NCBI GenBank assembly: GCA_002205965.3
Contig: NADL03000102.1
Span: forward strand, 1 to 64,000
Reading direction: 5' to 3'
DNA length: 64,000 bases
From: Kappaphycus alvarezii
Taxonomy: Eukaryota > Rhodophyta > Florideophyceae > Gigartinales > Solieriaceae
Shown here in pieces: positions 4,709-45,800 of the stretch (its first letter is position 1; each line of letters begins with the position of its first letter). Under the pieces are notes generated by a model. That model ran no database searches. It saw only the letters and a program-made list of their open reading frames with translations, and had not been told where the DNA came from. A program made the position numbers and the translations under genes.

Positions 4709-6164
4709 AATACTGTCTGAACGAAAAAGGTTCTCTTAGCATCTTGAAATCCGTCCTTGACCAATCGTCCTACTTTTTTCTTTCCAAAACAAATTCTAAA
4801 TATATTTTTCCTTTATGAATTCAAATTCACTGTACAACTCCATTTTCTATTTTATGTTTGTATATTTGGTCCTCCTCCTTCAAAGAGATGCCTTTCAATT
4901 TGTGGTCACTTCGCCTCCCAAATTCAGTTCCGATATTTTATCACGCAGATTTTTATGATGCCCCCGAATTCATGCAAATCCAAGGCCGCAGTATCGCCTC
5001 GTATTTTTTTTGACCAAGACCATGACGATTACCAAAGACATGCCCTATTTAAAGTTCTATAGCATTGTCGCTGAAGCACAACTCCTACCACCAACAATTC
5101 GATAAGCTGATTACCCTTTCTGTCGACATTCGCAACCCCGCTCACACCTTTTCCAGAAATATGACGTCAAATCGCCCCTCTGTCCCTATCTCCAAAAACC
5201 GTCCTTCCCGTCCAGCAATGGCCTCCGTCTCGTCGCCTACGGGCCAACCGATGCCGACGACTACCTCTGGCGGCAAACTAAGAAGAAGATCATCGAGTTC
5301 GTTCGCCGCCTCTTTATAGAAGAAGAGGCGAGGGAGGTAAGTGAGGATGAGGCTGAGAAAGTCGAGGAGGATAGCGGGGAGAGTCCTTCGAGAAATGGTT
5401 AGCCCCTGAGCTGGTTTACGAGACTCAGGAGAAGCATGAGGAGAACGGGGATGGGATGGAAGATTAGTCCATGGAGGAAGAGATGAAAGTGAGGGAATTG
5501 GACCACAGCTCCGAGAAAATTGGGCAGGGCGGGAGCTAGGAATGGAGGATCAGGTGGTACCGGTAATGGAAGTGGATAAAGATATCTTTAGTGGTCTAGA
5601 TATTTCAGTTGAGGCCAAAGGAAGCTGCGAACCGCTCGAAGGGATATGTGTGGACTGTATGGGTAGCATGGATATTTTGCAGGAGCTGCTCGGTTCTAGG
5701 GCTTGAGAATGAAGATTGTGAGGAGTAGATGTAGATATTTATTGGAAGTATCTTATTGCTAGTCTCTATCGTCCGCATGATTTGTTTTAGTGTATTTTTT
5801 GTATTCAGTATGCGTTCTTGAGACTTTGAGATTAGCCGAAAAGTCTTTATAAGCTGGGTAAACTGCTTCCTCCTTGAGAGGTCAAGCAAGTTAGCAGACA
5901 ACTCCAAGCCCAGTCCCAAATACTTAGGAAGTTGAGAGTCAACTTCAGACCCAAGAAGAATTTATTTTACGTTAGTCATTGAGCATAGGTGGTAGGCTCT
6001 GCCCATTTTATACTCCCTCATCGCCCTTGACCTGTCGTCCTCATCCACCTCCTTTGGTTCTCATAAATATATCACGGTGCCACTTTTGCCGCTTGCAACA
6101 CCTCCTTCTTGGGGTAATTGGTTCTGAGAATCTCTTGCCCCGCCGATTTATCCCTATCAAATAC
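4709..6164 (+). mobile_element. Solo LTR, copy A, with 5-bp target duplication
   Basis: The LTR runs from 4714 to 6159, begins TGTCTGAACG, ends CCCTATCA, and is flanked by AATAC on both sides (4709-4713 and 6160-6164). It lies inside the Helitron helicase relic, whose coding sequence resumes directly after the second AATAC. It shares long stretches with the LTRs at 40493-41985 and 44427-45795. It has a TATA-like CTATTTAAAG near 5045, a second TATA-like site near 5850, and an internal ORF region for a small acidic protein starting at an ATG near 5161. That ORF is broken in this copy. No internal region accompanies it, so it looks like a solo LTR. Confidence 0.85.
5161..5720 (+). pseudogene. 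LTR-borne acidic-protein ORF, copy A (broken)
   Basis: Begins with the conserved start MTSNRPSVPISKNRPSRP, followed by a basic middle and a Glu-rich C-terminal half that contains VEEDSGES-like and DIFSGLDIS-like segments. The same protein is recognisable in the other two LTR copies, so the reading frame appears to have been kept for a while within the family. No known domain was recognised. This copy is no longer open throughout, with a few breaks. Confidence 0.5.
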
Positions 6165-6420
6165 CGCAGCGGGGACAAAGTAGAGAACGAAAACGAAAAC
6201 CACTTGCGATATCCCATCGAGAATCTCAACACTTTCAATGCGTGGTATGCTATGTTCGATCATTGACTTGTACTCAAGAAAGGATGCTCTGCCATGCTCT
6301 TGCAAAAAATCTGTCAGCAAAGGGGCTGAGATGGACACGTCCTTTGCGTGATGGCGAAGGCAACGAGGTTCACCGTGCAACGTTGCGATGTGGTGTATAG
6401 TGTCAAGTCCAGATTAAGAA
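6160..6420 (+). pseudogene. Helitron helicase relic, 3' part
   Basis: Continuation of the Helitron helicase after the LTR. Segments resemble the late helicase boxes: a YP-IE-LNTFNA stretch near 6208-6235, LVLKKGCSAMLL near 6270-6305 (family consensus LKxGCPVMLLRN) and a weak CVMAKATRFTV near 6340-6375. The short spacing and order match the segment that normally follows the EINAI box seen just before the LTR, so the LTR split one coding region. It decays into unrecognisable sequence after about 6420. Confidence 0.65.
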
Positions 6421-6702
6421 GCAACGATGTAAGGCGTGTTGCTGCAGCATTGATATGGGCTTATGGGCTTACGCAAGGAACGTCAGACTGCTTGTGACTT
6501 ATGTGCAACTTAGCAACGGGACGCAGTCATTCATTTTATCAGAAATTGTACCACCATACTGCACAACACGCAAGCGTTATTTGCGATCCTCTCAGAGTTA
6601 TTACTTTGTGCCGACTTCCTGTGTTGTCCAACGTAATTGTAGTGCGATATAAGCCGACAAATCTGCCTCTAAAATAAATCCCGGGCTCACCAAGACACTA
6701 CT

Positions 6703-7011
6703 TTACAAAATCAACCCAGCTCCCATCAACATCAACCCCGCAAACGTACATCGAAACGGATCGCGATACGTCTTCAACCACATGACAAACCAAGTGCTCT
6801 TCCTGCGACTTGCGGTTGGTTTCCATGCTATCAAACGGCGCACGTTACCGCGTATGCCTTGCAGTCCTGGCGACGATACGCTCCCTGTACCCGGGTTCAG
6901 GAGAACATAATTCCCAGTCCGAGTTTGCTTTGCGCTCACTACTAACAAGTCATGAAGACAATCCTTCAGGGGCAAACTCGGCCTGACTTTCGCGACGAAT
7001 CCTTTGCACAT
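6703..7011 (-). CDS. Small hypothetical ORF
   Basis: An ATG-started frame of 102 codons. The N-terminal half is mixed, and the last third (LIAWKPTASRR, then FVMWLKTYRDPF, then a Gly/Leu/Met-rich hydrophobic end) could form one membrane segment at the C-terminus. No homologous family was recognised, no intron signals were examined with success, and it sits in otherwise gene-poor sequence. It may be a chance frame. Confidence 0.15.
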   Translation of the reverse strand: MCKGFVAKVRPSLPLKDCLHDLLVVSAKQTRTGNYVLLNPGTGSVSSPGLQGIRGNVRRLIAWKPTASRRKSTWFVMWLKTYRDPFRCTFAGLMLMGAGLIL

Positions 7012-7204
7012 GCAGCTCTAAGTTGCATTTTCGCTAACTACGCATCCCGGTAACGTAATCGTGTGTTCCGACGGGCAACACCGTCGAACTAGAAACGTAC
7101 TGTATTATACCCCAAAGTGTTCGGATAAATTACAACAAATTGACCATTTTTGTTGAATCTTCAAGTAGGTTAAACAACCCGAGGGCCAGAGCGCGAAGCG
7201 GGCA

Positions 7205-7248
7205 CGGGGCCACCAAGAGTAAAACACCCAAACCTTTCCCCGGGGCCA
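7205..7248 (+). mobile_element. 28-bp LINE 3'-tail insertion with 8-bp target duplication
   Basis: Positions 7213-7240 carry only the terminal motif of a LINE 3' UTR (CCAAGAGTAAAACACCC, then AAACC and TTTCCC). The same motif ends the LINE tail at 37154-37310 and, in reverse, those at 23026 and 25239. It is flanked by CGGGGCCA at 7205-7212 and 7241-7248. A direct duplication around an extremely 5'-truncated tail is the expected product of target-primed reverse transcription. Confidence 0.7.
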
Positions 7249-7249
7249 T

Positions 7250-9839
7250 TTGTCTGATTTCACTAAACGAACTGTAAAAGACTGAAAGGGCTAGTGTAAA
7301 ATATACCACTTCATTAACGGAGATTATGGCTTTCTTTGAGTCGCATGGCGTTCATTTGAATCACTGTTTTTCTCTCTCCAACCTAGTACGTGCGATGTAT
7401 GCATCACACAAGTGAACCGTAACGCAGCCCACTACGGGCTGACCGCCCCCTGCGCAATTTCTAAAATCTCCGATAAAACAAACGACTTTTCTTTTTGACT
7501 CTGCTCCTGCTCAATTTTCCTCCTTACCGTCCTTTCCAACACCATATGTCAGATGCACGTGCGTCGTGCGAGTAGAGTTGCAGCGTAGCGAATGTTGTTG
7601 TACCCGAGTGCTGCTGGAAAGGAGGGTTGATTTCATGAGAGGGTGAGAAGTTTGAGTGCTTTAGTGTTTGGCCGCACTGGCGGGTGTGCCCCGAACAGAA
7701 TGAAGCACATCTACGCACTAGGTACGTGGAGCAAAGTTTAAGAATCCCATGAAGGTGCATTCAAACCATGTTTCAGGATCGAAAGTACACGTGAATGAGC
7801 ATTGTACGAGTCTGTATGCTCATGGACATGGACAATAGGGCCTGTGTCACCAAGTTACTGAGTACGCAACGGGCACTAGACAAGATGTTAAATCGACAGA
7901 CGCGGGTCCAATCTGTGCAGTAGTGGAGAAAATTTCGCGGGAAACAGTTACACTTGGAAAGCGGGGGAAAAGAGAAGGTTCGTTTACTGTGACACGGAAA
8001 CATGTAACGGTGGAGCTTGAAGCGACGCTGACATTGCAAGTGCCTGCTCGAAAAGACTCTGCTCAAACAAAAGAAAGTGTGTTGTCCGTTGAACGGAACG
8101 GTTGTCTCACAGATATGCTCCTTTTGACAATGGCATGAAACCAATGCTTACGGTGGGGGTCACGTATTGTGTTATAGTGTCGTACAAGCGTGGTACCGTG
8201 CAAACAAGGTGGTATGAACGGTTGTTAGGTTGGTAGCGAGGGTATTTATGGGTAATGACACTAGGCAGAAGGTAATTGGCTGCAAGATATGTTGTTTTAA
8301 GGATTGTTCACGTCAACTTGATGGGAACGTGCGACAATAAAAACTTGTCTGTCGGCAGATCAAGTGTTTTACGAGATTGGAATGAGATTACTATTATGGG
8401 CAATGAATGGCTGGAGCAGGTGGCTGTTGCAGGCAGCTGTCGTAGATATTTGACGAGATAATATTACGCTGTCGTTTTTGTTGTAAAAATATTTCAATAA
8501 AATTAATGTCAAGTAGACATATCGTTAAATCGAATGAGAAAATGCCATTCCATCCAATGAAAAGGGTACACTTGGTATGAAAGCGTTCGTGACAAGTGTG
8601 GCGCTTCATCTCCGGTTAGTCAACGCGTCAATTGGCCATAGGGTAAGAGATTTGAATCTGCCCAACATTGAGATACAAACAGCAGAATAAAGATCAATCT
8701 ACAGCAACTACAGCAGCTACATCCGCTACTGTAACGTTGACCTCCACCTCCACCTCACGTCCAGCGGTGCGGTTAGCCTGGTGTATTACAGTCAAGGATG
8801 CCTCTCTTGTGCTTGCGCTCCACTGCATACCGTAGTGTATGGTCAGCGGGCTAAATTCGGACATTAATGTGCATTTCGTTTTTCAATACAGTACAAGGCT
8901 TTTGTCGGTGGGAAAACGTAGACGAAATACCGTCTACCCCGCCCCATGTGCCATCAGCTAGCTACCTCTTCGATAACCCAGTCATGCCCTGACAGTACCG
9001 TACATGCTCTCGATGACTTGCAGTATCCCCGGTACACACTGCATTTCTGCCCAGCAATTTTGGCAACTGTACAATAGATACTGTAACAAAGTGCCCACTG
9101 TCTTCATGTTGCCTCTGGAATGGGGGCAGCAGATATGTATGGTACAGTACTTACAGTACTGTACGATTGACACAGCCGAGAGGCATATATGGCACAAGAC
9201 AAGTGCGAGTGTGGCATGGCAGAGTCCAAAAGCCAAAAAAAATTACGTAAAAACATGACAGCGGTGCTGTAACTGTCCCTCTCATGTCGCGGAATACTGT
9301 ATTAAAGGCCGGCCCATGAAATGTGACAATAAAAGGATTCTTAGGTTTCCTTGTTCACTGTAAAGGTAAACAACAGTAAGAGAAGCCTGCCGGGAGAAAA
9401 AGGGTGCGGTACTGTACAGTACGGTGAGGTACAGTAGGGTACGTATGTTAACGAATGCCGACCGTAGGTTGCGCTGCACCAATATATCCCAAGTTTTTTT
9501 AAAAACTCGTTGTTGCGCTTGGCCAATTTTAACCTAATCGCCTGACCTCTCCCGTTTATAGAGAATAAAATCTATCTCATTCATTTATATTAATTTTTAA
9601 TTTGGAATGGTTTAAACTGGCGTAGCTGCACCCTTCTATGTATCTAAATTTTTTAATAAAAAACAAGGCAACTGTTGCCCGCCGGGAAATTTTACTTCTC
9701 CCATCTCCTCACTCTCGATGTCTCGAGTATTACTGTACCAACCGCAATAACAACTTTGCCAGATTTCCGTCAGCCCGTTTTATTTCCAATCCTACATCTC
9801 TCCCCCCTCTCTAAACCTCCGCCTTTTCGCTTCAGTCTC
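7250..9839. other. no gene recognised
   Basis: About 2.6 kb of mixed-composition sequence with only short overlapping frames on both strands (the largest are antisense to one another near 7773-8144). Several TACAGTAC/GTACTGTA palindromic words occur at 9145-9165 and 9410-9440, a motif also found elsewhere in the window. No RNA gene or transposon family could be named. Confidence 0.5.
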
Positions 9840-10002
9840 CTCTTCAACTCCTCCCCATCTCCTCTCTCCAGTTCCAACTCCACTTTCACTTTCCCTTCCC
9901 ATCTCCCATTTCCCATTTCCCTTTCCCCTTCCCCTTTCCCCTCCCTCCCCCCTCCCCTTCCTCTTCCTTTCCTTCCTTCTCCACACCACTCCCCTCTCTA
10001 CA
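9780..10002 (+). promoter_or_regulatory. C/T-rich leader upstream of the TPS gene
   Basis: A long, nearly pure pyrimidine tract (CTCTCC, CCTTTCC, CCCTCCC repeats) runs into the start codon of the trehalose-phosphate synthase gene. A similar C/T-rich stretch precedes the ATG at 29786. Pyrimidine-rich initiators or 5' leaders are a plausible core promoter feature in this genome. No TATA box was identified close by. Confidence 0.35.
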
Positions 10003-12981
10003 ATGGTTCGTCCTTCCCCTACTGAAGCCCGCATTACATTCATCGTCCGTTGCCAAACCTCCTACGCCCAACGCATACGCATCGTAGGCGATCACCCCGC
10101 CCTCGGCGGTTGGGATCCCGTTCGAGCCCAGGAGCTTACCACCTCGAGTTCCGATTATCCTACCTGGCGCATCTCCCTCACTTTACCTGCCGGTCGCAAG
10201 CTTTCGTACAAATACGTCTGTGTCACATCCTCCGATGTCCCTCCGACCGTCCTCGCAGGTGATCACTACGTCTCTCAGCACAGCGAATTGGAGGCCATGT
10301 CAGTCGCTGCATGGGAGAAATTTGACGACAATCGCGTCGTAGAGTTTGAAGGCGGCGCCACTGTCGTCGTCGATGATGGCGAATTTGGTGTTTGTGTAAA
10401 TGATCGCCTGGACAGGGTTCAGAGTGTTAGGGGATTGACCTGGGAAAGTGGCGGTAGGGAGGCAAATGATGCCGATAGTAGTGTCGATGGTGCTAGTGCC
10501 CCGGGAGCAGAAAGCGAGGGTTTGATCATCGTCTTGTATCGCTTGCCCATTATTGCGGAGAAGGCAGACACCGGTTGGGTCTTTAGCTGGGACGATGACG
10601 CCTTGTACTTGACCTTTTCTGGTTTGAGGAAGGGCGTGGAGGAGTTGAAGATCAAGCCCGTTTGGGTCGGCATTTTGAACACTGAGCATGTTGTCGAAAA
10701 CAACGAAAGGGATGATATTAGTAAGGAGTTGTGGGACAGGTTTCGTTGTGTTCCCGTGTTTTTGTCTCCCGACATCCTAACCAAGTTTTACCAGGGCTTC
10801 TGCAAGGGTACCTTGTGGCCAACCTTTCATATGCTGGCCCGCACCCATGGTCCTGATGGCAAAACATCTCGCTTTGATCAAGAGTCATGGCATGCTTACC
10901 AGCGCGTCAATCGCCAGTTTAGCAACACTATCGTCGAGCAGTACGATCGTCATTTGATATGGGTCCATGACTACCATCTTATGCTGCTGCCGTACTATCT
11001 CCGCATTAAGCTTGCGGGGGTGAAGATTATTTGCACATCCCATGGCCCAGTTCTGAGATATTCCGCATGCTCCCAGTGCGAAATGAAATCCTCAAGGGTT
11101 TGTTGAGTGCCACCATGCTTGGCTTTCACTTGTTTGACTACGCCCGTCATTTCTTATCGGGCTGCGTGCGCTTGCTCAATCTAGAGCACGAGGCGCGGCG
11201 AGGGAGTCTAGGCATCGACTATGAGGGGCGTCATGTCATGATTCGCGTCAGCCATATTGGCGTTCATCCACAGCGATTCAACGAGCGCGTCGGCATGCCG
11301 CACTTGCGACAGAAAATAGCAGAATTGGAAGCGAATACCCACGAAAGGTAATCATGGGAGGGTTGACGATTTGGACGTGATCAAGGGCATCGCGCTCAAG
11401 TTGATGGCGTTTGAGAATTACTTGTCTACGTCATCTCCGCGAGACCGCACCAATGTAGGGCTCATTCAGGTCGCAATTCCTAAGGCCGCCCGTGTAGAGG
11501 AGTCTGTTCGGAACGAAATTCGTGATCTTGTAGACGACATCAATAGGAGGTTTGGGTACGACGATCATGTCCCTGTCACATATATTGAGGAGGCCATCAC
11601 CTTTGACGAGCGAATGGCCATATATTCCGTGTGCGACGCTCTACTGCTCACGCCGATCCGCGACGGTCTCAACTTGATCCCCTACGAGTACATAGTCTCC
11701 ACTCCGCAGGGCAAGGGGCAGCTCATTCTTTCAGAGTTCACTGGCTGTTCGAAAGCACTGTCGTCGGCTGTGCGGGTCAATCCATGGAATTTAAATGAAA
11801 TGCGCGACGCCATCGATAATGTTGTGCAGAAAAAGGAGTCACAAGCAGCGGAGATTCGCCTCAAACATGAGGCTGATCGTAAGTATGTTACCATGCATAG
11901 CTCATCCACCTGGGCGGAATCTTTCCTCAGCGACCTAACGGAAGCCTCAGAGCCAGCACAAGAAGTAGTTCGCTTGGGGCTTAGCCGTGGTCGCGGCTTC
12001 CGGCGGCTCGAATTCGATGACTTTACAATGCTCAACTCGAGGGGTGTGGTCAAGGCATACCGAGAATCAAAGCGTCAGTTGTTCTTGTTTGACTATGACG
12101 GCACACTAACCCAGATCGAGTCAGAAAGCTCACGTATGGCACATACATGGGCTCGGCCAACAGAGGAGGTCCTAGGAAATTTGGAACTCCTCTCAAAACA
12201 GGACAATTGTACAGTCATTATTCTTTCTGGAAGAGGCACTTCAACAGATGGATTCCACTTGCCGAATATGAAATCGCTTGGAATTGCTGCGGAGCATGGT
12301 CTTTACTACAAGAGACCGGGAGGTGATGAGTTCGAAATGCTTGCGCCAGAGGCAGACTTGACCTGGATCGAAGTAGCAAACCGAATCATGCAGCTTTACA
12401 CAGAAAGGACAGATGGATCGTACATCGAGGAGAAGACAGCAGGGCTAGTGTGGCACTATCTGGCCGCAGATCCAGAATTTGGGGGGTGGCAAGCAAAGGA
12501 GATGCACGACCATTTAGAGAGTATTCTGACACCATTTGATGTGCAAGTAGTAAATGGGCAGGGATGGCTGCAGGTGCGTCTGGGAAATGTGAACAAAGGA
12601 GAAATGGTTCGACACATTTTGGCTGAGATGGACGAAAGTCCAGACTTTATTCTATGTGTTGGGGATGACAGGACAGACGAAGACATGTTCAAAGTGTTAG
12701 CCGAAAAGACGGAAACTTCTAGGGGAATAAGTCTTTTTACGGCCACAGTGGGCGTGAAACCTAGCAATGCTCGTTTCTACTTGAGAAGCTCCGTAGAAGT
12801 GGCACAGTTGATTGAAGGTATCATTGAAATTGCCCTGCCGGGGAGCGCCACTCATGTGAGAAGTTCAACATTGGAAGACATGCGGCCAATGGCATTAAGA
12901 CGACTAGCGGCTGAAAGGTTGTCACACTCTTCGTCCTCGGGCGCGTTGAATAGTGTAGCTCCGTCGTCTCTAAACGAATAA
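10003..12981 (+). CDS. Class II trehalose-6-phosphate synthase/phosphatase with N-terminal CBM20; frame interrupted
   Basis: Encodes about 990 residues. Residues about 8-105 form a CBM20 starch-binding domain (GDHPALGGWDP, then WRISLTLPAG). A GT20 trehalose-phosphate synthase domain follows (FSWDDDALY, VHDYHLMLLP, PSSEIFRMLPVR, LDVIKGIALK, RDGLNLIPYEY, SEFTGCS). Last is a HAD trehalose-phosphatase domain (DYDGTLT, ILSGRG, NVNKGE, GDDRTDEDMF). The catalytic HAD aspartates are present. The DDLDVIKG segment lacks the Arg of the bacterial ERLDYSKG motif, as in plant class II proteins, which are often poor synthases. The reading frame leaves register near 11025, where about seven bases appear missing between VKI and LHIPWP, and returns near 11340-11370. 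The middle part stays highly conserved in the shifted frame. Either a recent pseudogene or sequence error; no intron consensus fits these positions. Confidence 0.9.
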
Positions 12982-17150: not shown

Positions 17151-17154
17151 GATC

Positions 17155-31163: not shown

Positions 31164-31442
31164 TGTCGCGCGATTTTTGTGTCGCGCGACGGTCAGGGTC
31201 GCTAGTTGATTGGCCCGGTGTGCTCGTACAGTACTACTGTACACTGTACGAGCGGGAAGTGGGCTCGTACAGTGTACAGTAGTAGTGTACACTGTACTTG
31301 CACATTCATGAGTAGAAACCCCGGACCGGCCGCCCCTATAAGATGACGCTAGGGCTGTCGGAGTCCGGGGGAACGGGAGGTAGGTTCCGCTTGGCCGAAA
31401 AAAACACAGAGAGAAGCAGAGTAAACAGAAACAAGCATTTCA
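31164..31442 (+). repeat. 5' LTR of the Ty3/Gypsy element
   Basis: Begins TGTCGCGCG and ends GCATTTCA. It includes a GCGCGATTTTTGTGTCGCGC inverted repeat, a large GTACAGTGTAC-type palindrome and a CCCCTATAAGATGACG TATA-like region. The segment following it begins TGGTACCGCATCC and could be a primer-binding site. The palindromic part is longer than in the 3' LTR. Confidence 0.85.
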
Positions 31443-32170
31443 TGGTACCGCATCCAAGGTTGACTATGGACATGAACGATTCCCTTAGACCCCACGTTTC
31501 CTGCAACGGTTCCCCTTCTTCCGACGTCGCGTGCTTCCTTTTCGCGTACGAGAATGTAGTCATGCGCGGAAAAAACGACGAGGAAAAGGCGCTCCAGATC
31601 CTTTGCCACCTCGAGGGCGCGGCGTTTGAGCGTTACTACGAGGCTTTCGCGAGAGACGGAGCATTGGTGGAGGAGGCGAAGGACTATTCGATCGTTAAGG
31701 CCAAGCTCATCGAGGAGTTTGGGGAGACTCCGAAGCCGGAAGAACTGCAGAAGGCTATAAACGCTAGATTGGACCCAAAGGATGTAATGGGCTCCCTGGC
31801 GCAGTTGGACGCTCTATACAAGAGAGTGGGATTCAACGATACCGCCTCCTTCGGCCTGCTTCGGAAAGCAGTGGCAGAAGATCAAGACATGGCGCAGTTC
31901 GTAATGTTTAGAGCCCCTTCGGACTATAAGGGGCTCAAGAAGGCAATCACGGACTTCGTAAGTGGAAAGAAGACGTTCTACGGAGAAGGAAGTCAAGGAT
32001 CATCGTCGAGTGAAGCGCCGAAGAAGATCCTCCAGAGGCCGGATGCTCGTAGTTCTCAGCATCTGGAAAATAAGGTGGAGAAGTTGGCCGACCAATTTGC
32101 TGAACTATCGTTGCTCGTGAAGAAGCAATTCGACGGAACGACGCCGCCAATGAAGGCGGATGCGGATTAG
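31442..32170 (+). CDS. gag-like ORF of the Ty3/Gypsy element
   Basis: An open frame of about 240 codons from the ATG at the LTR edge (an upstream ATG lies inside the LTR). It resembles retrotransposon gag capsid domains: CHLEGAAFERYYEAF, then LIEEFGETPKPEEL and a helical region with LDALYKRVGF. The C-terminal part is Ser/Lys-rich. No CCHC knuckle was seen. The frame appears open. Confidence 0.65.
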   Translation: MVPHPRLTMDMNDSLRPHVSCNGSPSSDVACFLFAYENVVMRGKNDEEKALQILCHLEGAAFERYYEAFARDGALVEEAKDYSIVKAKLIEEFGETPKPEELQKAINARLDPKDVMGSLAQLDALYKRVGFNDTASFGLLRKAVAEDQDMAQFVMFRAPSDYKGLKKAITDFVSGKKTFYGEGSQGSSSSEAPKKILQRPDARSSQHLENKVEKLADQFAELSLLVKKQFDGTTPPMKADAD

Positions 32171-32355
32171 TTTTGCAGCTATTAAAACCAAAAGGGCCAC
32201 GGAGCGAGCCGTTGTCCGCATAATCCGCATCGAGATACGCGCTGTACAATTTGTGGGAGAAGAGGACATTCGGAAGCAACATGCTGGTCCAAGAACCCCC
32301 GTGGTGATGATCAGCGGGAGGAGTTGCTAGGGCCCGGTCTGAGTCTGGAGAAGAA

Positions 32356-35300
32356 TTGAAAATGAAGAAAAAGAAGGACGAGAACAAGGTCGCCGTTGTT
32401 CAGGAATCTCGCAAAAAGGACGTGGTTGCCGCTGCGAAGAGAAATGCGGACGGGCAGGCCCTCCCGAAACAGCGGAGGGAAAACTTGATGGATCTTGATG
32501 CCATCTTGAACAAGGCCCCTGCTAATCGTCCGCCAATGATGGCTCCTGTCCCAAAGAAGAAGACTAAAAGAGGAAATCGCAAGTCGAAGAAGAAATCCGG
32601 TGAACTTCAGGATCATGTAGGGAAGTATAACGTGATCGCTGAACTGGCTTCCGCTGCCACAGGAATGAACTTCGGGCAACTATTGCGCGGGGATGCCGAG
32701 GAGGCCAGAAAGGTTTTAAGGAGATTTTTATCCAAGAGGTTACCAGTTACACAGGCGTCGATGGTCAACTCTTCAGGAGGTTCACGCAGACTCAAGGTAG
32801 TAGCCGTGAAGTTGTATGGAACGGAGACTCATGCCCTTTTGGACACGGGTGCAGTTCCTAACCTGATCTCTTGGGACCTCTGCAAAAGGCTTGCCCTCAC
32901 CCCGACGGAAACCGATCGTCAGGTGAAAGTAGCAGACGGAACTGTCGCCGAGGTTCTTGGTTGTCTCAAGGGAGTGCCGGTGTCTTATTGGTCAATGGTT
33001 GTGCATCTTGAGTTCCTGGTTGTCAACAATGCCCCGTTTGACGTTATTTTTGGAAGCTCGACTCTGGAAGCCCTCCAGACGCGCATCGATTATGCACTCC
33101 AACAGGTCACTTTGGTTATTGGAAATGAAGAGCTTGTGTTGCCATTCGTCAACGAGCCGTCCAGAATCAGTGGGGCTCAGACGGGTAGTGAGGACTTCAC
33201 GTTCCCCAAAGGCTCAGACGATGAGGCTCTGATACCGAACAAGACTTGGTCTTAGCCATCATTAACAAGGAAACATACGAGCCTGATCTACCTCGCTCGA
33301 CGAAGACTGAAGTTAAGAAGAAGGTAAAAGAGGAGGTGGACCGCTCGGCTCTATTGGCCTCGAAGCTGGACCACCTCGAAGAGAAGAATCAGAAGGAGCT
33401 GGCGAGAGCCCTCAAGGAAACGGATGTCATAGCTTGGGACATTTACGACCTGGAGCCTGCTAATGTGCCGGTGGTACATTCTTTCGAGTTGACGGACGAG
33501 ACGCCGATACATTCGAAGGCCCGCCGAATGCCGCCGAGGCATAACGAGGTCGTAAGGAAAGAAGTGAAGGAATTATTGGAAGCGGGAATCATTACGCCGT
33601 CAAGGTCCGCCTGGTCCTTTCCGGTCGTGATAGCCACGAAGAAAGACGGAAGGCCCCGGTTCTGCGTCGATTACCGTCAGTTGAACAGGGTGATGAAGCC
33701 AGACCGCTGGCCGCTGCCGAAATAGAAGAAATCTTCGATGAACTCTCTGGTGCAGAGTTCTTCACAACATTGGACCTTTACACAGGGTACTGGCAGGTTA
33801 GGATGTCTGAGGCTTGCAAGGAAAAAACGACCTTTTCTCTCGATATGGAACGTACAAGTTCGAGGTAATGCCGTTCGGGCTCATGAATGCTCCAGCGACA
33901 TTTCAAAGGATGATGGATGATGTCCTTCGCGGGTTGCCGTTCGCTATGGTTTATGTGGACGACGTTGTCATCTTCTCGAAGACATTGGAGGAACACATAG
34001 CTCATTGCAAGGAAGTGTTCAGGAGGATAAAAGAATCGAAACTGAAGTTGAAGGTTACCAAGTGCAGCTTTGCTCAATCAGAAGTGAAGTTGCTTGGTCA
34101 CATCGTTAATTCAAGTGGTGTGAAGGTGGATCCCGACAAGATCAAAGATGATTTAGAAGCTCCGGTGCCGAAAACCGTGATCGAACTCAGGAGTTTTCTG
34201 GGATTCGCGGGGTACTACCGACGGTTCATAAGGGGTTTGCCGACAGCTCAGCAGTGTTGCACGCGGCGATCTGTTAAGAAGGCTTTCGAGTGGACTCCGG
34301 AGATGCAAGAGGCCTTCGAATACTTGAAGGGGAAACTGACTACCCCTCCAGTATTGGCGTTTCCGGATTTCAATTCTCCTTTTCTAGTGGAAAAAAGACG
34401 CCTCTTCGGCAGCCCTTGGGGTTGTTCTCTCGCAGAAGAAAGAAGACGGGAAAATACATCCCATTCAGTTTGCTTCTCGAACGATGATGGACCAGGAGCG
34501 CCGCTACTCCACCAGCGAACGGGAAGCACTCGCCGTGGTTTTCGCTCTTAAGAAGTTTCGAGTGTACCTCCTGTCTGACAAGCCCTTCGTTGTCTTTACG
34601 GATCATCAAGCTCTTCAAACGGCGTTCAAGAAGAAAGATATTCACGGGCGGTTGGCAAGGTGGATGGATTTGATGGCGAAATACGACTTCGAGATCAAGT
34701 ATCGTCCGGGACTGGCGAATGGGGCGGCCTATTATCTCTCGAGAAGACCTAACAAGAAGGAAGAAAGAAGAAACGGGGAAAACATAACAGAAGGATTGGT
34801 GGCGACAGTGGATTGGGCAGACCCAAAGTTGTACGGTTTGGAACCGCACTTCCTAGATGTAGCACGGTTCCTAGCCGGAGAAATGGTTCAAGAATCCGAC
34901 CCGAAGAGGAAGGTTGCAGTCAGACGGAGCGCAAAAAGTTTCATGCTCTGGAACGACACCCTTTTTCGTCGTGAGAAGGACGGGCTCCGTGTCGTGCCTC
35001 CGATCGATCAGCGCTCGGAGATACTGGCCACCTTTCATGATGATACTGGCCACTGGGACGTCGAGTTGACAAGAAAGTTCTTGAGGGACCGATTCTGGTG
35101 GCCTGGGGTGTACCGTGATGTCACCGAGTATGTACAAGGTTGTGATGGGTGTCAGCATGCGAGAAGGTTGCCGACGTATCACTCGAGTTTGAGAGCTCCC
35201 GTTACTGGACTCTTCGGGATCTTCTCGATGGACTTTGTTGTACCCTACAAGCCTTCGAAGAATGGGAAAAGACTTATTCTGATTGCTGTGGAACATATGA

Positions 35301-36048
35301 CGGGGTGGCCCATAGCGTGGGCCACGACGGATTCTACGGCCGATACGGTGATGAGGTTCATCGAGGAAGAGATAATATCACCGTTCGGGCCGTCAAAGAG
35401 AATTATCTCGGATAATGCGACTGCGTTTATGGCGGGATCGGTACAAGAGTACATGAAAGAGAGGGGAGTCGAGTGGAAGGCGGTGCTTACTTACGCGCCG
35501 ATGGCAAACGGTCCCGCGGAGCAGATGGTGGGAACTATCAAGCACGCGCTCAAAAGATCTTTCGTCCGCGGGTGGGGTAGACTGGGCAGAAGCCCTCCCC
35601 AAAGTCTTATACAGTTACCGCAGACGCGACCGAAGCGACGCCCTTTCCCCTTTTTCGACTGATGTATGGAATTAATCCGAGAATGCTGGCCAGCGATTCG
35701 GTAGCATTTCTCAGTGACGCCGGCCCCCATCATCGGCTTATAGATACCTTAGCCGATTCGAGAACGCGAGCTGGCGTGGTGTAGAAGACCAACGAACCCC
35801 GCAAGACCAGAGAAAAAGTCAGGAAAATCGAAGTTGGAGAGGAAGTGTTGGTAGCATACGGTGCGGCCTTCAATAAGGGGCGCAACTGGCCTGCCTTCGA
35901 CTCTTGTTTCTATGGACCGTGCAGGGTGACGAAGGCGAACCACCCTCGCTACGAGTTACTTTCCTCCACCGGTCGCGTTACGAGGAAGGCAATTCACGCG
36001 CGCCGGATTGTCCCGTATCAGAAGAGATCGACCCGTTTATTCAATTAA
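32356..36048 (+). pseudogene. pol region of the Ty3/Gypsy element
   Basis: Protease ALLDTGAVPNLIS near 32835-32873. Reverse transcriptase with FCVDYRQLNRVMKPDRW near 33660-33712, GLMNAPATFQRMMDD and YVDDVVIFS near 33880-33980. RNase H with FTDHQALQTAF near 34597. Integrase zinc region with GHWDVELTRKFL and CDGCQHARR near 35050-35165, and core with DFVVPYKPS, DNATAF and NGPAEQMVGT near 35230-35540. A basic stretch after integrase reads VTRKAIHARRIVPYQ. The reading is interrupted in about four or five places, so the copy is broken although all domains remain recognisable. Confidence 0.85.
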
Positions 36049-36683: not shown

Positions 36684-36921
36684 AGTCGCGCGATTTTTGT
36701 GTCGCGCGACGGTCAGGGTCGCTAGTTGATTGGCCCGGTGTGCTCGTACAGTGTACAGTAGCAGTGTACACTGTACTTGCACATTCATGAGTAGAAACCC
36801 CGGACCGGCCGCCCCTATAAGATGACGCTAAGGCTGTCGGAGTCTGGGGGAAGTAGAGGCAGGTTCCGCTTGGCCGCAAAAAACAAAGAGAGAAGCGGAG
36901 TAAACAAAAACAAGCATTTCA
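36684..36921 (+). repeat. 3' LTR of the Ty3/Gypsy element
   Basis: Matches the 5' LTR throughout except for a shorter palindrome and scattered differences. It is preceded by a purine-rich AGTAGGGGGGCGAG stretch that fits a polypurine tract, and followed by the second ATGAC. Confidence 0.85.
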
Positions 36922-36926
36922 ATGAC

Positions 36927-40223: not shown

Positions 40224-40492
40224 ATGGTCATAGAGGCCTTTATGGCGCTTGTTGTGCTGGCAGAGCCTGCGAGTGAATCTTTCGAGAGTTCAGGGATGAA
40301 CAAGAATGCTATTGAAGTGATTTCTCGGTTGATGGGGCAAACTGGAGAGAGATATATGTTTGCTCGGTTGCCTTCACTGGAAGCAGCTGGATCTTTTGTT
40401 TCTTCGTGTAAGGAACAATACGTGATTGAGAAGATCGCCACAGAAGCCATTGGCGGCCTTGATGTAGACGATCCTACATGTAACCATGCTAC
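40224..40492 (+). other. Hypothetical ORF cut by an LTR
   Basis: An ATG-started frame reading LVVLAEPASESFESSG, then VISRLMGQTGERYMFARLPSLEA, which looks protein-like (helix-rich, no stops) but belongs to no recognised family. The LTR at 40493 begins directly after GCTAC at its end. It may be part of a host gene or another element. Confidence 0.25.
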
Positions 40493-40918
40493 TGTAATAC
40501 AGAAATGGTCCTCTCTTCATGTATTACAGGAAATAGTCCTCCCTTCGTGTAATCCAGCAACCTACAACGATCCCGCCCCTAACTTCTCCCACCGTCATTT
40601 CCAAATTTACTTCCATTTTATCTAGATATTTTTATACTGTATTTAACCCTCTGAATCGACCCCGAATCAAGTCCCCTTTCCCTTTTAGCTTACCTCCTCC
40701 TCCAAATTCGCCTTTTTTGAGAAGAAGGGCGCAAATGCACTACTGCAAAATCCCTTGCAGATTTATTTTACCTATTCCTAATCTATAGAACCTGCCCTGA
40801 CTATTTAAACCCCTTTATTCTAAGTTCCAAATGCCCCCGATCATTTTACTCATCACCCCTCTCCCCCCACACACCCAAAACACCCTACATAGCCTCCCGT
40901 TCCCCAACGTCTATCAAA

Positions 40919-41544
40919 ATGAACAACCTTCGCCCCTCTGTCCCTATTTCCAAAGACAGCCCTTCTCGTCCCATCAATGGCCTTCGTCTCGCCGCCTACG
41001 GGCCAACCGATGCCGACGACTACATCCGGCGGCAAACAAAGAAGCAAATCATCGAGTTCGTTCGCCGCCTCTTCATAGAGAAGAAGCGAGGGAGGTAAGT
41101 CCGGGAGAAACTGAGAAGGTCGAGGAGGAGAGTGGGGAGTCCTTCGAGGAATGGTTAGCCCCTGAATTAGTATACGAGGCTCAGGAGGAGGAGGAGGAGG
41201 AGGATGGGGAAGATGAGGAGGAGGATGAGGAGGAGGAGGATGAGGAAGATGGGGAGGAGGAAGAGGAGGAAGAGGATGAGGAGGAGGAACGGGAGGAAGA
41301 AGAGGAGGAGGAGGATGAGAGAACAGGGGGCATGGAAAGTGTTGGACTGGTGGGGCCTGGAATGGAGAGTATGGATCAAGTTGTGCCCACGATGGAACCG
41401 GATGGAGATATCTTTAGTAGTCTAGATATCTCCCAGGGGGGAATAGAGAGCTGTGAGCCATTCGCAGATATTTGTGGGGACTGCTTGGACAGCATGGATA
41501 TTTTAGAGGAGTTGTTTGGATCTGATTTAGAGAATGGGAAATAA
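40919..41544 (+). pseudogene. LTR-borne acidic-protein ORF, copy B
   Basis: Starts MNNLRPSVPISKDSPSRP, continues INGLRLAAYGPTDADDYI with a basic helix KKQIIEFVRRLF, then a conserved acidic segment SFEEWLAPELVYE, a long Glu/Asp run (41190-41330, a GAG/GAA microsatellite), and an end GDIFSSLDIS and DCLDSMDILEELFGSDLE. The C-terminal half forms a long open frame, but the copy is not open throughout. The Glu run is longer here than in the other copies. No known domain. Confidence 0.55.
41185..41330. repeat. GAG/GAA microsatellite
   Basis: Imperfect GAG, GAA and GAT triplets that lengthen the Glu/Asp stretch in the LTR-borne ORF of copy B. Confidence 0.85.
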
Positions 41545-41985
41545 GAGGACCAAATTAATTGTTAGTTTCTTAAGTATCTTTTGCTTAGAGTATATTGTCC
41601 ACACAAAGTATTTTTATGCATTTCTTGGTATCTTCTGTAGTTTTGTTCGGACTTTAGGGGTAGCCAAAAGTCTATATAAGCTGAGTAAACTGCTTCCTCA
41701 TGGAGAGGTCAAGCAAGTTGGCAGACAACTTCAAGCCAAGTCCCGAGTAGTAGGAAGTTGAGAGTCAACTTCAGACCCAAGAAAACTTTTTCTTACGCTA
41801 GTCGCAGAGCGTCGGTGGTAGACCCTGCCCCTTTTATACTTGCTTGTAGCTTTCTCCTCTCTCTTATATATACTCCCTTTTGTTCGTTCAACAATACCAC
41901 GGTAGCACTTTTGTCACTCGCAACACCTCCTTCTCAGGGTAATTGGTTCTGAGGATCTCTTCCCCCGCCGATTTACCCCCTATCA

Positions 41986-42160
41986 TTTGGTACTCTTGTG
42001 GAGGGGGTTGCACCCGAGGTATTCGAGTTGAGCAGTAGTAAGGAACACTTCGGGGGGATTTCTTTTCTGTAATCATGGATCTCAACGCTGCTCGTATAAC
42101 GTTCACAGGGACAAAAGTGCTACCGTGGTATTGTTGAACGAACAAAAGGGAGTATATATT
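41986..42160 (+). mobile_element. Leader-like segment joined to an inverted LTR fragment
   Basis: Directly after LTR B there is about 90 bp that could be a retroelement leader, then an ATG at 42075 (MDLNAARITFTG). From 42111 to about 42160 the sequence is the exact reverse complement of part of LTR B (about 41867-41914). It therefore looks like a rearranged remnant of the internal region joined to a second, inverted LTR piece. Confidence 0.5.
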
Positions 42161-42164
42161 AGCG

Positions 42165-42720
42165 CTTTTTGCACGAGTCTCTGACACTTAAACCTACATG
42201 AAACGAGTGTGACGCAAGGAAACAGTCCTCTTTAGCCGAGCTCGCCTCTAGGATTCGAAAGAAGCGATGTTTTGTCGGAAACGTGGGGTTATGAGAGGAT
42301 CTTGAAAGGATACACAGCGGTACCAGAGGAGGGTGGTAGGAAGGACTGGGCAGTTGATGCGAACGTGGACAAGAGCTCGCGATGTGCAACGAATAGTGAT
42401 ACGCGGCGTTAATCGCACTACAATAAAGCTACTCTAATAGAGCTAGTCAAAGAGTAGAGAGGGTTGATGTTGTTGTCAACAACGCGCCGAAACCTGCCGT
42501 GATGTTTATATTGTAGTCGAAGTGTGCAGGCAAATTGCACCGACAATCCAAATTGAATCCAATGAACAAGCGCAGCCAGGCGTATTCTGCGGCAGTCCAA
42601 GAAACGTCCATTCACAGAGCAGGTTCTCCAACAATGCTCCATTTGGCAGCCTTACAGTCCATTTGCAGTCCATGCATAGGGATAACGTTTACAAGGGTAT
42701 CCGCATGCGCAAAAGCTGCT
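42165..42720. other. no gene recognised
   Basis: No convincing frame. A short GAAGAAGAAGAAGAC stretch at about 42730 marks the likely 3' end of the minus-strand LINE that follows. Confidence 0.4.
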
Positions 42721-42793
42721 GGGTATTGAAGAAGAAGAAGAAGACTTTACCAAGCAGGAAAGGGGGGGTAGCGGCCCTCAAAAGGGGAAAAAT

Positions 42794-44426
42794 CTATCCG
42801 AGCCAGAAGCGGTTGAGTTGTCCTCGGTTGATCGCGACAGAAGTTCGTTGTTCTATGAGCGAACTGATAATAATGAACAAGCGATCGCGCTCAAAGGCAG
42901 GGCTACTGCCTTTCCGTAGAGCGATGTACTCAGCAATTCTGGACAGACCTCGTTCGGCACCGGGATCGGCAGAACCGTATATATCGACAGCCACCGTGTG
43001 GAGTTCGATACGTAGTTCGGCGCAGAGGTGGCCATAGCGGAGAGATTTCGCGCGCTCAGATGCAGTAAGGGCAGCGAGGGGCGTGTGAATCCGCTGTTGG
43101 GAGTATGGAGCGGAGTGGGAGCTGATGACAGTGACGTCGTAGCCATGCGGGACGGGAGAGAACTGGACATCATCGATGTAGATGTCGAGGCGGCGGCGGG
43201 AATTGGAGGGTTGGGTCAAGTCTTGCGGGAAGGTCCATTCCCGGACAGGGCGAATTCCAATTGATAAGCGTGATACCTCGGAAATGAGGCGGTCGCGAAC
43301 ACAATTGCGGCGCCGAATGGAGCCGTCGGCGCAGGGACAGACAGAGGCATGGTGTCCGTAGGAATCCAGGGTGGGGAGAGTGCGGAAGTGGGAGGCGGCG
43401 CAAAAGGTGCAGGGTTGTGTGCCAGAGAAGATAGGGACACCAAGACGGAGGCAAACCATGGTTCGCCATACTTCAGGAGGGGCCCGGGTACCGAGATGGC
43501 TCTGCGAGAGGTTGTGAAAGGGACGAGAGGCGTGGGAAGAAGCGACGGAAGCTAGGCGGCGGAGTAGCCGGGAACCTTCGGAAAAGGAGATGTCGACGGA
43601 GGAGAGAAGTCTGGCACGAAGCGCCTTTGTGATCTAAGCAGTAGCGATTCTCTGGAAGTCAGACAGGTCGGGGAAGAAGAGACGCGGAGGCCAGCAACGA
43701 CGGCGCGGGGGGGGGGGACTGTCGGAGAGGCTGTATTTGGCCCGGATAGAGGCGAGAGGCGTTGAGATCAAGGGCGAGACGTCGAAGCAATCACCGAGGA
43801 GGAGGCGAAGAAGTGGGTAGGAGGAGAGAACAGAGCCAGCGTAGCATGCCTCTGCGATGGTTTCGGTTAGGGGCAGCCCGAGCCCTCCCCATACGGAATG
43901 GAAGCTGGGCGGTGAGCCAGGTACTGTCTGGGAGACGACGGTGCATGTCTTCGAACACCCTTTGCATTCCAGAGTCAAAGGTTTGAGCTCCGGAAAGAGT
44001 GAGATGCGGCAGGGTGCAGCGAAGAACATAGATCAGGCGGCAGGAACTGGCGCAGTGTCTCAGTAGTTGGTAGCCCAGTTGAGGGTCATTCAATCCGGAG
44101 ATGCGCGACCAAACCTCGGAAACGTCATGTACGCGGGAGGCAAGAAAAGACTGGCAGCTTTGAGGGGTGCCGATTCGGGATCCGAGGACTGTCACGTAAT
44201 TGTGAGAACGTATCGTGCAGGGTATGGCACACCGAAGGGACGCGGGGAGGGGATCCGGGCCAGGACGCCATAGCGTTGTCTTCGCCATGTTGATAGGGAA
44301 ACCGAGTGGCTTTCCACGGTCTGAGATGAAGCGGAGAACCTCAGAAGCAAGGTTGACAGGGGCGATGACGATACCGTCGTTGGCGAACCAAGCGTTTAGG
44401 CGTATGGCGGGAAAGCGTGATGAGAG
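42794..44426 (-). pseudogene. LINE polyprotein, C-terminal part (RT end, zinc finger, endonuclease)
   Basis: Resumes directly after the LTR with SSRFPAIRLNAWFANDGIVI (FANDG in place of the usual xxDDG polymerase box), then LGFPINMAKTTLW, LGSRIGTP and a thumb helix QLGYQLLRHCASSCRL. A frame change follows near 43870. The zinc finger reads CTFCAASHFRTL with SYGHHASVC. The endonuclease has RRLDIYIDDVQFS and GYDVTVISSH, and the end reads VAVDIYGSADPGAE. The polymerase box with Asn instead of the first Asp would be inactive if real. Confidence 0.75.
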
Positions 44427-45800
44427 TGATAGGGATAAATCGGCGGGGGAAGAGATCCTCAAAACCAATTACCCCAAGAAGGAGGTGTTGCAAGCGACAA
44501 AACTGCTACCGTGGTATAGTTGAACGAACAAAAAGGAGTAGATAGGGAATACAGTTGAAAGGGCTACAAGCAAGTATGAAAGGGGCAAGTTCTACCCCCT
44601 ATGCTCAGTGACTAGCGTAAAATAAATGCTTCTTGGGTCTAAGGTTAACTCTCAACTTCCTACCTATTTGGGACTGGGCTTTAAGTTGTCTGCCAACTTG
44701 CTTGACCTCTCAAGTAGGAAGCACTTTACTCAGATTATACAGACTTTTCGGCTAGTCCCAAAGTCTCGAGAACGCATACTAAATACCATAAAATGGACTA
44801 AAACCAATGATTTGGACGATAGAGACTAGCAATAAGATACTTCCAATAAATGTCTACATCTACTCCTCACAATCTTCATTCTCAAGGCTAGAACCGAGCA
44901 GCTCCTGCAAAATATCCATGCTACCCATACAGTCCACACATATCCCTTCGAGCGGTTCGCAGCTTCGCAGCTTCCTGTGGCCTCTCCTGAAATATCTAGA
45001 CCACTAAAGATATCTTTATCCACTTACATGACCGGTTCCACCTGATCCTCCATTCCTGGCTGCCGCACCGCCCCAAAGTTCTCGGAGCTGCGGTCCAATT
45101 CCTGCACTTTCAACTCCTCCTCCACAGACCGAATTTTCCATCCCATCCCCGATCTCCTCATCCTTCTCCTGAGTCTCGTAAACCAGCTCAGGGGCCAACC
45201 ATTTCTCGAAGGACCCCCCGCTCTCCTCCTCGACTTTCTCAGTCTCATCCTCCCTTACCTCCGTCGCCTCTTCTTCTATAAAGAGGCGAAGAACGAACTC
45301 GATGATTTTCTTCTTAGTTTGCTGCCGGATGTAGTCACCGGCATCGGTTGGCCCGCAGGCGGCGAGACGCAGGCCATTGATGGGACGGGAAAGGCGGTTT
45401 TTGGAGATAGGGACAGAGGGGCGATCTGACGTCATATTTCTGGAAAAGGGGTGAGCGGGGTTGTGGATGTTGACAGAAAAGGTAATCAGCTTATCCAATT
45501 GTTGGTGGTAGGACTGATGCTTCAGCGACAATCTGCATGAATTCGGGGGCATCACAAAAATCTGCGTGATAAAATATCGGAACTGAATTTGAGAGGCGAA
45601 GTGACCACGAATTGAAAGGCATCTCTTTGAAGGAGGAGGACCAAATATTCAAACATAAAATAGAAAATGGAGTTGTACAGTGAATTTGGATTCATAAAGA
45701 AAAAAAAATTTAGAATTTTTTTTGGAAAGAAAAAGGTAGGACGATTGGTCAAGGACGGATTTCAAGATGCGAAGAGGACCTTTTTCGTTTCGACAGAGAG
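44422..45800 (-). mobile_element. Solo LTR, copy C, with 5-bp target duplication
   Basis: Spans 44427-45795 with GAGAG directly before (44422-44426) and after (45796-45800). On the plus strand it begins TGATAGGG and ends TTTCGACA. Read on the minus strand it aligns with copies A and B. It lies inside the LINE reverse transcriptase, and with one GAGAG removed the LINE reading runs straight through, which fixes the boundaries to the base. It lacks about 100 bp present in copy A near the first TATA-like site. Confidence 0.9.
45016..45435 (-). CDS. LTR-borne acidic-protein ORF, copy C (open)
   Basis: An ATG-started open frame of 139 codons: MTSDRPSVPISKNRLSRP, then INGLRLAACGPTDAGDYI, a basic helix KKKIIEFVLRLFIEEE, an acidic segment with KVEEESGGSFEKWLAPELVY, and a Gly-rich end. 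It matches the proteins of copies A and B from the first residue. The downstream DIFSGLDIS-like end found in the others lies beyond its stop. Function unknown. It is not gag, pol or env as far as recognised. Confidence 0.5.
   Translation of the reverse strand: MTSDRPSVPISKNRLSRPINGLRLAACGPTDAGDYIRQQTKKKIIEFVLRLFIEEEATEVREDETEKVEEESGGSFEKWLAPELVYETQEKDEEIGDGMENSVCGGGVESAGIGPQLRELWGGAAARNGGSGGTGHVSG

Follow-up and report, generated by a model that had tools for sequence, protein, structure and literature searches.

Long terminal repeats (LTRs) are usually regarded as regulatory DNA. Reading frames that overlap an LTR, such as Ty1 TYA and HIV/SIV nef, merely begin or end in it, whereas the algal ORF described here lies entirely inside. 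The foamy virus gene for Tas (Bel1) lies for the most part between env and the 3′ LTR. A selected protein-coding gene entirely within an LTR is rare; the case found in the literature is sag of mouse mammary tumour virus (MMTV), whose LTR is described as very long, about 1.3 kb, and whose sag gene is present in every LTR copy because it is encoded there (PMC3026287). Tas is described as activating its own LTR and a second promoter (PMC517496). Plant LTR retrotransposons carry additional ORFs (aORFs) that include env-like sense frames as well as Grande gene23 and other antisense frames, and, according to PMC7264820, gene23 has a promoter of its own that drives its transcription, and encodes a nuclear product.

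Like sag as described in PMC3026287, the algal ORF sits in a very long LTR and would encode an accessory protein. The original prediction drew this comparison, which holds for the layout but not for sequence homology: there is no Pfam match at cut-off, and no relation to Sag was detected by Pfam or among about 5.8 billion proteins. In contrast to MMTV, the algal LTR has a TATA box within U3 directly 5′ of the ORF, the host is a red alga, and the internal regions inspected yielded no recognisable env. The likeness to Tas, as characterised in PMC517496, would be one of proposed function, that of an element-encoded LTR activator. Tas uses an internal promoter, whereas the algal ORF and its putative promoter lie entirely within the LTR, and no homology was found. 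Like the plant aORFs, the algal frame is an additional conserved ORF of an LTR retrotransposon, but the aORFs described in PMC7264820 occupy the internal region whereas the algal ORF occupies the LTR.

Three LTRs and the family to which they belong

The window, a 64,000-nucleotide stretch of Kappaphycus alvarezii DNA, contains three LTRs (A, B and C) with the following features.

4714..6159, + strand: LTR A, a solo LTR of subfamily S1; 5-bp target duplication AATAC at 4709-4713 and 6160-6164
5046..5053, + strand: P1 of LTR A, TATTTAAA, putative core promoter of the LTR ORF, 115 nt 5′ of the ATG
5161..5728, + strand: LTR ORF copy A, frameshifted; MTSNRPSVPISKNRPSRP ... DIFSGLDIS ... SMDILQELLGS, motifs in different frames
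5846..5853, + strand: P2 of LTR A, TTTATAAG, TATA box 3′ of the ORF, putative genomic-RNA promoter
40493..41985, + strand: LTR B, 5′ LTR of the young subfamily S3, running into internal sequence
40802..40809, + strand: P1 of LTR B, TATTTAAA, 117 nt 5′ of the ATG
40919..41544, + strand: LTR ORF copy B; the frame changes after ...RRLFIE and stays open from there, via the acidic tract, to the stop
41673..41680, + strand: P2 of LTR B, TATATAAG, conserved TATA box
41986..42110, + strand: internal-region remnant beside LTR B; PBS-like TTTGGTACTCTTGTGGAGGGG and gag start, then interrupted
44427..45795, − strand: LTR C, a solo LTR with target duplication GAGAG, sitting between non-LTR retroelement frames
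44860..45435, − strand: LTR ORF copy C, ATG at 45435; 139 codons open, then frameshifted

The predicted boundaries, TG...CA ends and target duplications of A and C proved exact, and similarity spans most of the length of all three LTRs, as had been proposed. LTR B, being a 5′ LTR that continues into internal sequence (PBS and gag start, 125 nt), has no target duplication; the internal remnant matches locus L057 at 96.8% over 125 nt. The protein motifs named in the original prediction are indeed encoded in A, B and C, but the frame is broken in every one (after MTSNRPSVPISKNRPSRP in A, after ...RRLFIE in B, after 139 codons in C), such that none of the three holds an unbroken ORF. The DIFS-LDIS end, thought to be limited to two copies, is present in 3/3. 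The TATA-like site reported 5′ of the ATG in two copies is TATTTAAA, at 5046 in A and 40802 in B; in C the P1 region is deleted and there is no exact P2 box.

A, B and C belong to a Ty3/gypsy-type LTR retrotransposon family of a red alga, whose features include a PBS, a polypurine tract (PPT), gag-protease-RT-RNase H-integrase, 5-bp target duplications and paired LTRs. The PBS (TTTGGTACTCTTGTGGAGGGG) follows the 5′ LTR and the PPT (AGAAAGGGGGCG) precedes the 3′ LTR, both adjoining the LTRs, and gag begins about 90-100 nt beyond the LTR. In the pol of the diverged relative L031, Pfam identifies Asp_protease_2, RVT_1, RT_RNaseH and Integrase_H2C2 in that order, with no match for the integrase core in the frame tested. 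Exact target duplications flank 9/30 loci, counted by eye, and also L042 and L043 (2/10 in a second set). The suggested search for full-length elements with two such LTRs recovered C59 (target duplication GTGCC) and C833 (none), as well as five further same-strand ORF pairs at the right spacing (7504-7586 bp). Between paired LTRs, mismatches number 2 over 1491 aligned columns and 3 over 1500, not counting 6 and 13 gap columns. A small element other than an LTR is ruled out by the flanking PBS and PPT, the internal gag-pol and the paired copies.

Both LTRs of C59 carry an intact LTR ORF, as do the 5′ LTR of C508 and one LTR of the C833 pair. Ten young internal regions were compared, namely the 8 present among 19 sites fetched plus those of C59 and C833. 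Six share a protease frameshift that three do not have, and one differs. An alignment of two internals reveals many private single-base indels in each, which are probably long-read errors. Six LTR subfamilies could be distinguished, with recombination detected between them. Between S1/S2 and S3, about half of the compared sites in the 5′ part of U3 differ, and the N-terminus of the protein is nearly unchanged.

Conservation of the LTR ORF and its TATA boxes

The sense-strand ORF encodes a protein of roughly 188-215 aa. With its own ATG there, the ORF lies wholly inside the LTR, and not between pol and the 3′ LTR. The protein starts with a constant N-terminus that includes a basic helix, continues into an acidic tract whose length varies, and closes with a conserved acidic-hydrophobic C-terminus bearing a leucine-rich motif (SMDILEELFGSDL). 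Structure prediction places a helix at residues 31-71 (mean pLDDT 93 for residues 41-50) in an N-terminal model of low overall confidence (mean pLDDT 63.4). Pfam gave no domain match at cut-off (best E 0.033, in the acidic stretch), PDB sequences gave no homologue (best E 0.16, a designed protein), and neither yielded a known DNA-binding domain. No homologue was found among the roughly 5.8 billion proteins searched, nor any relative among viral contigs, in a search that may not have covered the genome from which the window comes.

P1 conforms to TATWTAAA and lies 85-117 nt 5′ of the ATG in most copies. The predicted TATA-like site is conserved, being found in 23/30, 9/9 and 8/9 copies and exactly in 3/4 diverged relatives. 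A second block, TATAAG, lies 3′ of the ORF in 9/9 aligned LTRs; P2 has the form TTTATAAG in LTR A and TATATAAG in most other copies. This conserved downstream box would place the ORF in U3, taking the box as the guide to the U3/R border. P1 and P2 may be the start sites, and the protein may be produced.

The ORF is a real one and more than chance, and the case for it is stronger than originally proposed. Between subfamilies its frame has the lowest dN/dS of six, intact copies are numerous, and when a single intact ORF was base-shuffled 20000 times, 1 of the shuffled sequences was stop-free. Among the matches listed that reach the protein end (residue 193), 73/109 are stop-free, with 150 of 10617 candidates scored. 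Substitution patterns show that the frame has evolved under purifying selection, as the proposed dN/dS comparison across genome copies bears out. With the acidic tract masked, values are 0.44 for S1-S2 (95% interval 0.30-0.62), 0.47 for S2-S3 (0.28-0.80) and 0.38 for S1-S3 (0.25-0.56), compared with 0.57-1.41 for the other five frames. Four diverged relatives (L031, L033, L034 and L035), with amino acid identity of 48-64% and dS from 0.65 to saturated, give dN/dS of 0.10-0.40 in 10/12 pairs where it is computable. For the C-terminal 42 codons of S1 versus S2, S2b and S3, dN/dS is 0.06-0.12 at dS over 2. In the reverse frame rev2, between-subfamily values are lowered too, to 0.57-0.73, and 1 falls outside two of the three intervals; this is expected because rev2 shares third positions with the ORF frame. 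With rev0 and rev1 near or above 1, an antisense ORF was rejected. L012, L030, L048, L049 and L035x were dropped from the subfamily dN/dS, indel, P1 and U3 comparisons as duplicates, as second LTRs or for excessive divergence; the intact-copy and C-terminal dN/dS left out L012, L048, L049, L055, L094 and L095. L093 and L098 yielded no ORF by the extraction rule used.

Within subfamilies, dN/dS fails to single out the ORF frame. Within S1 it is 0.73, with two control frames at 0.74 and 0.69, and within S3 it is 0.43 versus 0.41 in the reverse frame sharing third positions; some comparisons of intact copies, which were picked for open frames, give 0.5-0.93. ORF indels in the older S1 copies are mostly (51/55) not multiples of three. 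In S3, 14/19 ORF indels have lengths divisible by three. Of these 14, however, 13 fall within the repetitive acidic tract, and whole-codon slippage is expected there; for this reason they were dropped as support for a gene. Outside the tract, 1/5 is a multiple of three. The odds of a real gene are unaffected, since dN/dS and intact copies carry the claim.

Possible roles of the U3-encoded protein

We lean toward a reading in which the ORF encodes an accessory protein, expressed from its own promoter, within the U3 of this Ty3/gypsy-type family. The small gene would consist, in order, of P1, the ORF for the roughly 188-215 aa protein and P2. P2 would start the genomic RNA, with gag following about 90-100 nt past the LTR, and the ORF would also be copied at the 3′ end of this RNA. 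From P1, protein could be made in any LTR, including solo LTRs. The sequence comparisons establish the ORF under purifying selection, its position before P2, the two conserved TATA boxes and the young LTR pairs with intact ORFs. That the protein is a nuclear regulator activating its own family's LTR is a guess, held with less than even confidence. In such a protein, binding to nucleic acid or a host factor might fall to the constant N-terminus and basic helix, and recruitment of transcription machinery to the acidic tract and acidic-hydrophobic C-terminus, comparable to foamy virus Tas/Bel1.

Long acidic tracts are common to many other proteins. A published formula for acidic activation domains (PMC10550315) is matched in the C-terminal part of 20/29 intact proteins, which were picked for open frames and include many near-identical copies, and anywhere in only 1/136 ORFs of the window; among S1 C-termini it is matched in 0/3 (L012, L048, L094 and L095 were left out of the count). 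The divergence of the 5′ part of U3 between S1/S2 and S3, alongside a near-constant N-terminus, is awkward for a protein that would bind U3.

A post-transcriptional role is rather unlikely, yet of the alternatives it survives best. The protein would be a Rev/Rem-like RNA-export or packaging helper, or a partner of Gag or integration, with the basic helix binding RNA and the leucine-rich C-terminus (SMDILEELFGSDL) serving as an export or docking motif. Conservation of that motif, the predicted helix and the place that the ORF would occupy in the genomic RNA, at its 3′ end as with other retroviral accessory genes, are consistent with this role. Against it, there is no homology to known families, and the C-terminus is equally acidic and hydrophobic, also fitting activation domains.

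We regard it as decidedly unlikely that the protein is an anti-silencing factor that, acting in trans from solo LTRs, shields the family against repression by the host. VANC of the Arabidopsis VANDAL elements is such an accessory protein, in a DNA transposon. Many stop-free ORFs persist genome-wide, and the LTR ORF is intact in C59, C508 and C833 despite the protease frameshift common to 6/10 young internals, a shared lesion suggesting that these copies may have moved in trans. However, the copies are young, and their ORFs may simply not have decayed yet; the lesion itself could be partly assembly error.

Capture of a host gene fragment is improbable. The failure to find a homologue elsewhere leaves room for a host source, but the ORF occurs in six LTR subfamilies, several with saturated synonymous sites, and no non-LTR copy was seen among the 150 scored of 10617 candidates, with surroundings inspected for a minority of the listed matches. 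A neutral passenger or chance open frame has a negligible probability: the free decay of S1, its within-subfamily dN/dS no lower than in control frames, the S3 indels outside the acidic tract and the three broken window copies would fit it, but a chance frame is ruled out by between-subfamily dN/dS well below 1 and lowest of the six frames, by values of 0.06-0.4 at high dS including the diverged relatives, and by the number of stop-free copies.

Extending the U3 accessory-protein reading, the LTR might be a self-sufficient two-promoter cassette. On this tentative and somewhat unlikely proposal, the protein would activate or protect the family in trans, and the solo LTRs together would make up a regulatory network spanning the genome and able to mobilise copies with dead gag-pol.

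LTR-LTR recombination normally removes the genes of an element; on this proposal it would leave the U3 gene behind in every solo LTR. Solo LTRs can carry genes, and annotation pipelines that mask LTRs will miss them. A retrotransposon of a red alga, very far from vertebrates, shows the sag layout together with what looks like a dedicated promoter. The family keeps its LTR ORF through deep divergence while reshuffling U3, N-terminal and C-terminal modules, and it makes it possible to test cleanly whether elements other than retroviruses encode proteins that regulate their own LTRs.

LTRs A, B and C and their family

Three related LTRs had been predicted in the window, two of them with TG...CA ends and exact 5-bp target duplications. 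Their positions are confirmed, and the ends and duplications are those of LTRs A and C.

Features in the window
4714–6159, forward strand: LTR A; TG start, CA end, exact 5-bp duplication AATAC
9751–12981: host gene for a red algal-type trehalose-6-phosphate synthase/phosphatase that combines CBM20, GT20 and trehalose-phosphatase parts
31165–31442 and 36685–36921: direct repeats (~240–280 bp) of a different Ty3/gypsy-like element, flanking gag-protease-RT-integrase (frames 31316–35662)
40493–41985, forward strand: LTR B; without target duplication
44427–45795, minus strand: LTR C; TG start, CA end, exact 5-bp duplication GAGAG

LTR B is the 5′ LTR of a truncated element, because TTTGGTACTCTTGTGGAGGGG and 125 nt of internal region that include the start of gag adjoin it directly on the 3′ side. 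This internal sequence is 96.8% identical to that of a full-length relative. A short inverted piece of the 3′ part of the LTR (42107–42162; 96% to LTR positions 1371–1426) abuts the broken internal region. LTR C sits between reading frames of one non-LTR retroelement. All three LTR ORFs in the window are broken (0 of 3 uninterrupted).

Two of the neighboring features merit comment. In the different Ty3/gypsy-like element, the gag frame seems to have its first methionine (~31343) within the 5′ repeat, and thus coding may start inside that element's LTR too. The closest named relatives of the trehalose-phosphate synthase are red algal (Erythrolobus, Rhodella, Rhodosorus, Rhodochaete, Compsopogon and Cyanidiococcus).

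Searches of the assembly (336,021,096 bases in 884 contigs) recover copies at 81–91% identity to LTR A (40 scored of 6686 first-look candidates) and mostly at 94–95% identity to LTR B (40 scored of 4035 candidates). Exact 5-bp flanking duplications, counted by eye, are present at 9 of 30 loci, and the PBS type of B also adjoins four other copies (L012, L013, L017 and L022). Internal regions have the Ty3/gypsy order of gag, aspartic protease, RT, RNase H and integrase zinc domain. Full-length elements with two such LTRs exist. In one, C59, GTGCC flanks both sides, a PPT precedes the 3′ LTR, and the LTR pair differs by 2 mismatches over 1491 aligned columns plus 6 gap columns. The other, C833, has 3 mismatches over 1500 columns plus 13 gap columns and no matching duplication. 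At least five more same-strand ORF pairs, identified from the spacing of listed ORF matches alone, lie 7504–7586 bp apart, the spacing expected for two-LTR elements.

Several element-level observations accompany these data. After the integrase, the C59 element (L057:4551-6048) carries two similar consecutive stretches (YFMISICLCFRALHGPHLSYEDSFLMMRVFFSYRHPF and YINICLCFRTLNGPLLPQEDFRLLIRVLFSFQNG) that lack a Pfam match and look like a domain in two copies. One protease frameshift is common to 6 of 10 young S3 internal regions (L060-L078, L057, L058), absent in three and different in one; this hints at mobilization in trans, a reading complicated by single-base indel errors in the assembly. Two copies, L041 (C471) and L044 (C527), share an identical 15-nt 5′ flank, with one continuing into internal sequence and the other resembling a solo LTR, and are possibly two haplotypes or a duplication.

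Conservation of the LTR ORF

Intact ORFs encode 188 aa in subfamily S1, 188–193 aa in S2, 193–209 aa in S3 and 204–215 aa in S2b. When one intact protein was used as a genome query (150 scored of 10617 candidates; 150 of 191 matches listed), 109 of the best 150 matches reached residue 193, with 73 of these 109 stop-free, as were 37 of the 41 listed matches that fell short; since the listed matches are those that score best, these figures overstate the proportion of intact copies. Among unselected LTRs, 4 of 30 copies (S1), 3 of 9 (S2) and 6 of 9 (S3) retain the full frame, one of the four from S1 stopping early at 173 aa. Diverged relatives with 48–64% aa identity reside inside LTRs at four further loci (L031, L033, L034 and L035). 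The acidic tract (L095, L086-L091) is a repetitive D/E-coding stretch whose length differs among copies; in L095, a portion of the tract switches to a different reading frame (KRMRLKRRMR), after which the D/E-coding frame resumes.

The predicted frame stood up to a comparison of dN/dS between subfamilies. Over 163 codons, with the acidic tract left out, between-subfamily values of 0.44, 0.47 and 0.38 (upper bounds 0.62, 0.80 and 0.56, respectively) are the lowest of six frames; the five control frames give 0.57–1.41, the lowest of which (0.57–0.73) is the reverse frame sharing third positions. Fixed differences between S1 and S3 number 25/159, 27/158 and 43/153 at codon positions 1, 2 and 3. 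Against the diverged relatives dN/dS is 0.10–0.40, with dS saturated in 2 of 12 pairs. For the C-terminal 42 codons, S1 compared with other groups yields 0.06–0.12 at dS >2, and closer comparisons yield 0.17 to 0.93. Within subfamilies the ORF frame is not distinct (S1 0.73, controls 0.69–1.17; S3 0.43, one control 0.41), as would follow if copies decay once inserted. Indels in S3 are multiples of three in 14 of 19 cases in the ORF versus 0 of 14 in the flanks. We discount these as support because 13 of the 14 fall in the repetitive acidic tract; elsewhere in the ORF, 1 of 5 is in-frame.

Putative promoter boxes and LTR modules

The TATA-like site predicted just upstream of the ATG is conserved. 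This putative box, P1 (TATWTAAA), lies 112–117 nt before the ATG in 23/30, 9/9 and 8/9 copies of the S1, S2 and S3 sets, counts that are non-independent because the copies are related. It recurs in three of the four diverged relatives (85, 115 and 116 nt before the ATG), the fourth having TATTTGAA at 117 nt. By chance, such a box is expected in that band in 0.46–0.66% of sequences.

3′ of the ORF, the DNA around TATATAAG forms one of the LTR's best conserved blocks. All 9 of 9 aligned LTRs, from six subfamilies, contain TATAAG, and 19/30, 8/9 and 9/9 copies (S1, S2 and S3) have exact TATATAAG or TTTATAAG; these counts, too, come from related copies. With gag beginning ~90–100 nt behind the LTR, this block is likely the genomic promoter, which would place the ORF within U3. 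From sequence, we infer that P1 and P2, the putative TATA box after the ORF, act as start sites.

Upstream of the ORF, S1 and S2 nearly agree (6 of 476 fixed sites differ) and S3 differs at about half. The first 80 codons are in near agreement among all three. From the acidic tract onward S2 is in agreement with S3, with S1 differing at roughly a quarter to half of fixed sites, and the part 3′ of P2 is alike in all three. Judging from these patterns, recombination appears to have swapped U3 modules and protein halves. At its 5′ end (L047:1-130), the S3 LTR carries about four tandem repeats of TAATACAGGAAATGGTCCTCCC type, possibly enhancer-like; S1 and S2 have another 5′ module.

Parallels and proposed role of the protein

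The LTRs of MMTV are ~1.3 kb long because they encode Sag, which is expressed from spliced RNAs, according to PMC3026287. In contrast to the ORF of this family, additional ORFs of plant elements are described as internal in PMC7264820. Among the listed titles and abstract openings of literature outside subscription, MMTV is the sole evident parallel for ORFs inside LTRs, and such a survey may miss a retrotransposon case. The term “LTR ORF” has another meaning in PMC4016481 and PMC12037069.

The protein matches no Pfam family at cut-off and no PDB relative. Searches of viral contigs and of ~5.8 billion proteins gave no homologue; the protein database includes red algal sequences, although LTR-borne ORFs rarely enter gene predictions. 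For the N-terminus encoded in the window, a two-sequence AlphaFold model predicts a single helix at residues 31–71 (mean pLDDT 93 at residues 41–50, 63.4 overall). A published formula for acidic activation domains (PMC10550315) matches the C-terminus of 20 of 29 intact proteins, including 0 of 3 from S1, and matches elsewhere in 27 of 29. Among 136 window ORFs of at least 100 codons, one passes the formula and four pass its two-term form.

A gene under selection resides inside this LTR, with two conserved TATA boxes and intact copies in young paired LTRs. P1 would drive expression of the ORF in every LTR, and our own guess is that the protein might regulate its own LTR. The product could instead help RNA export or packaging, or could counteract silencing.
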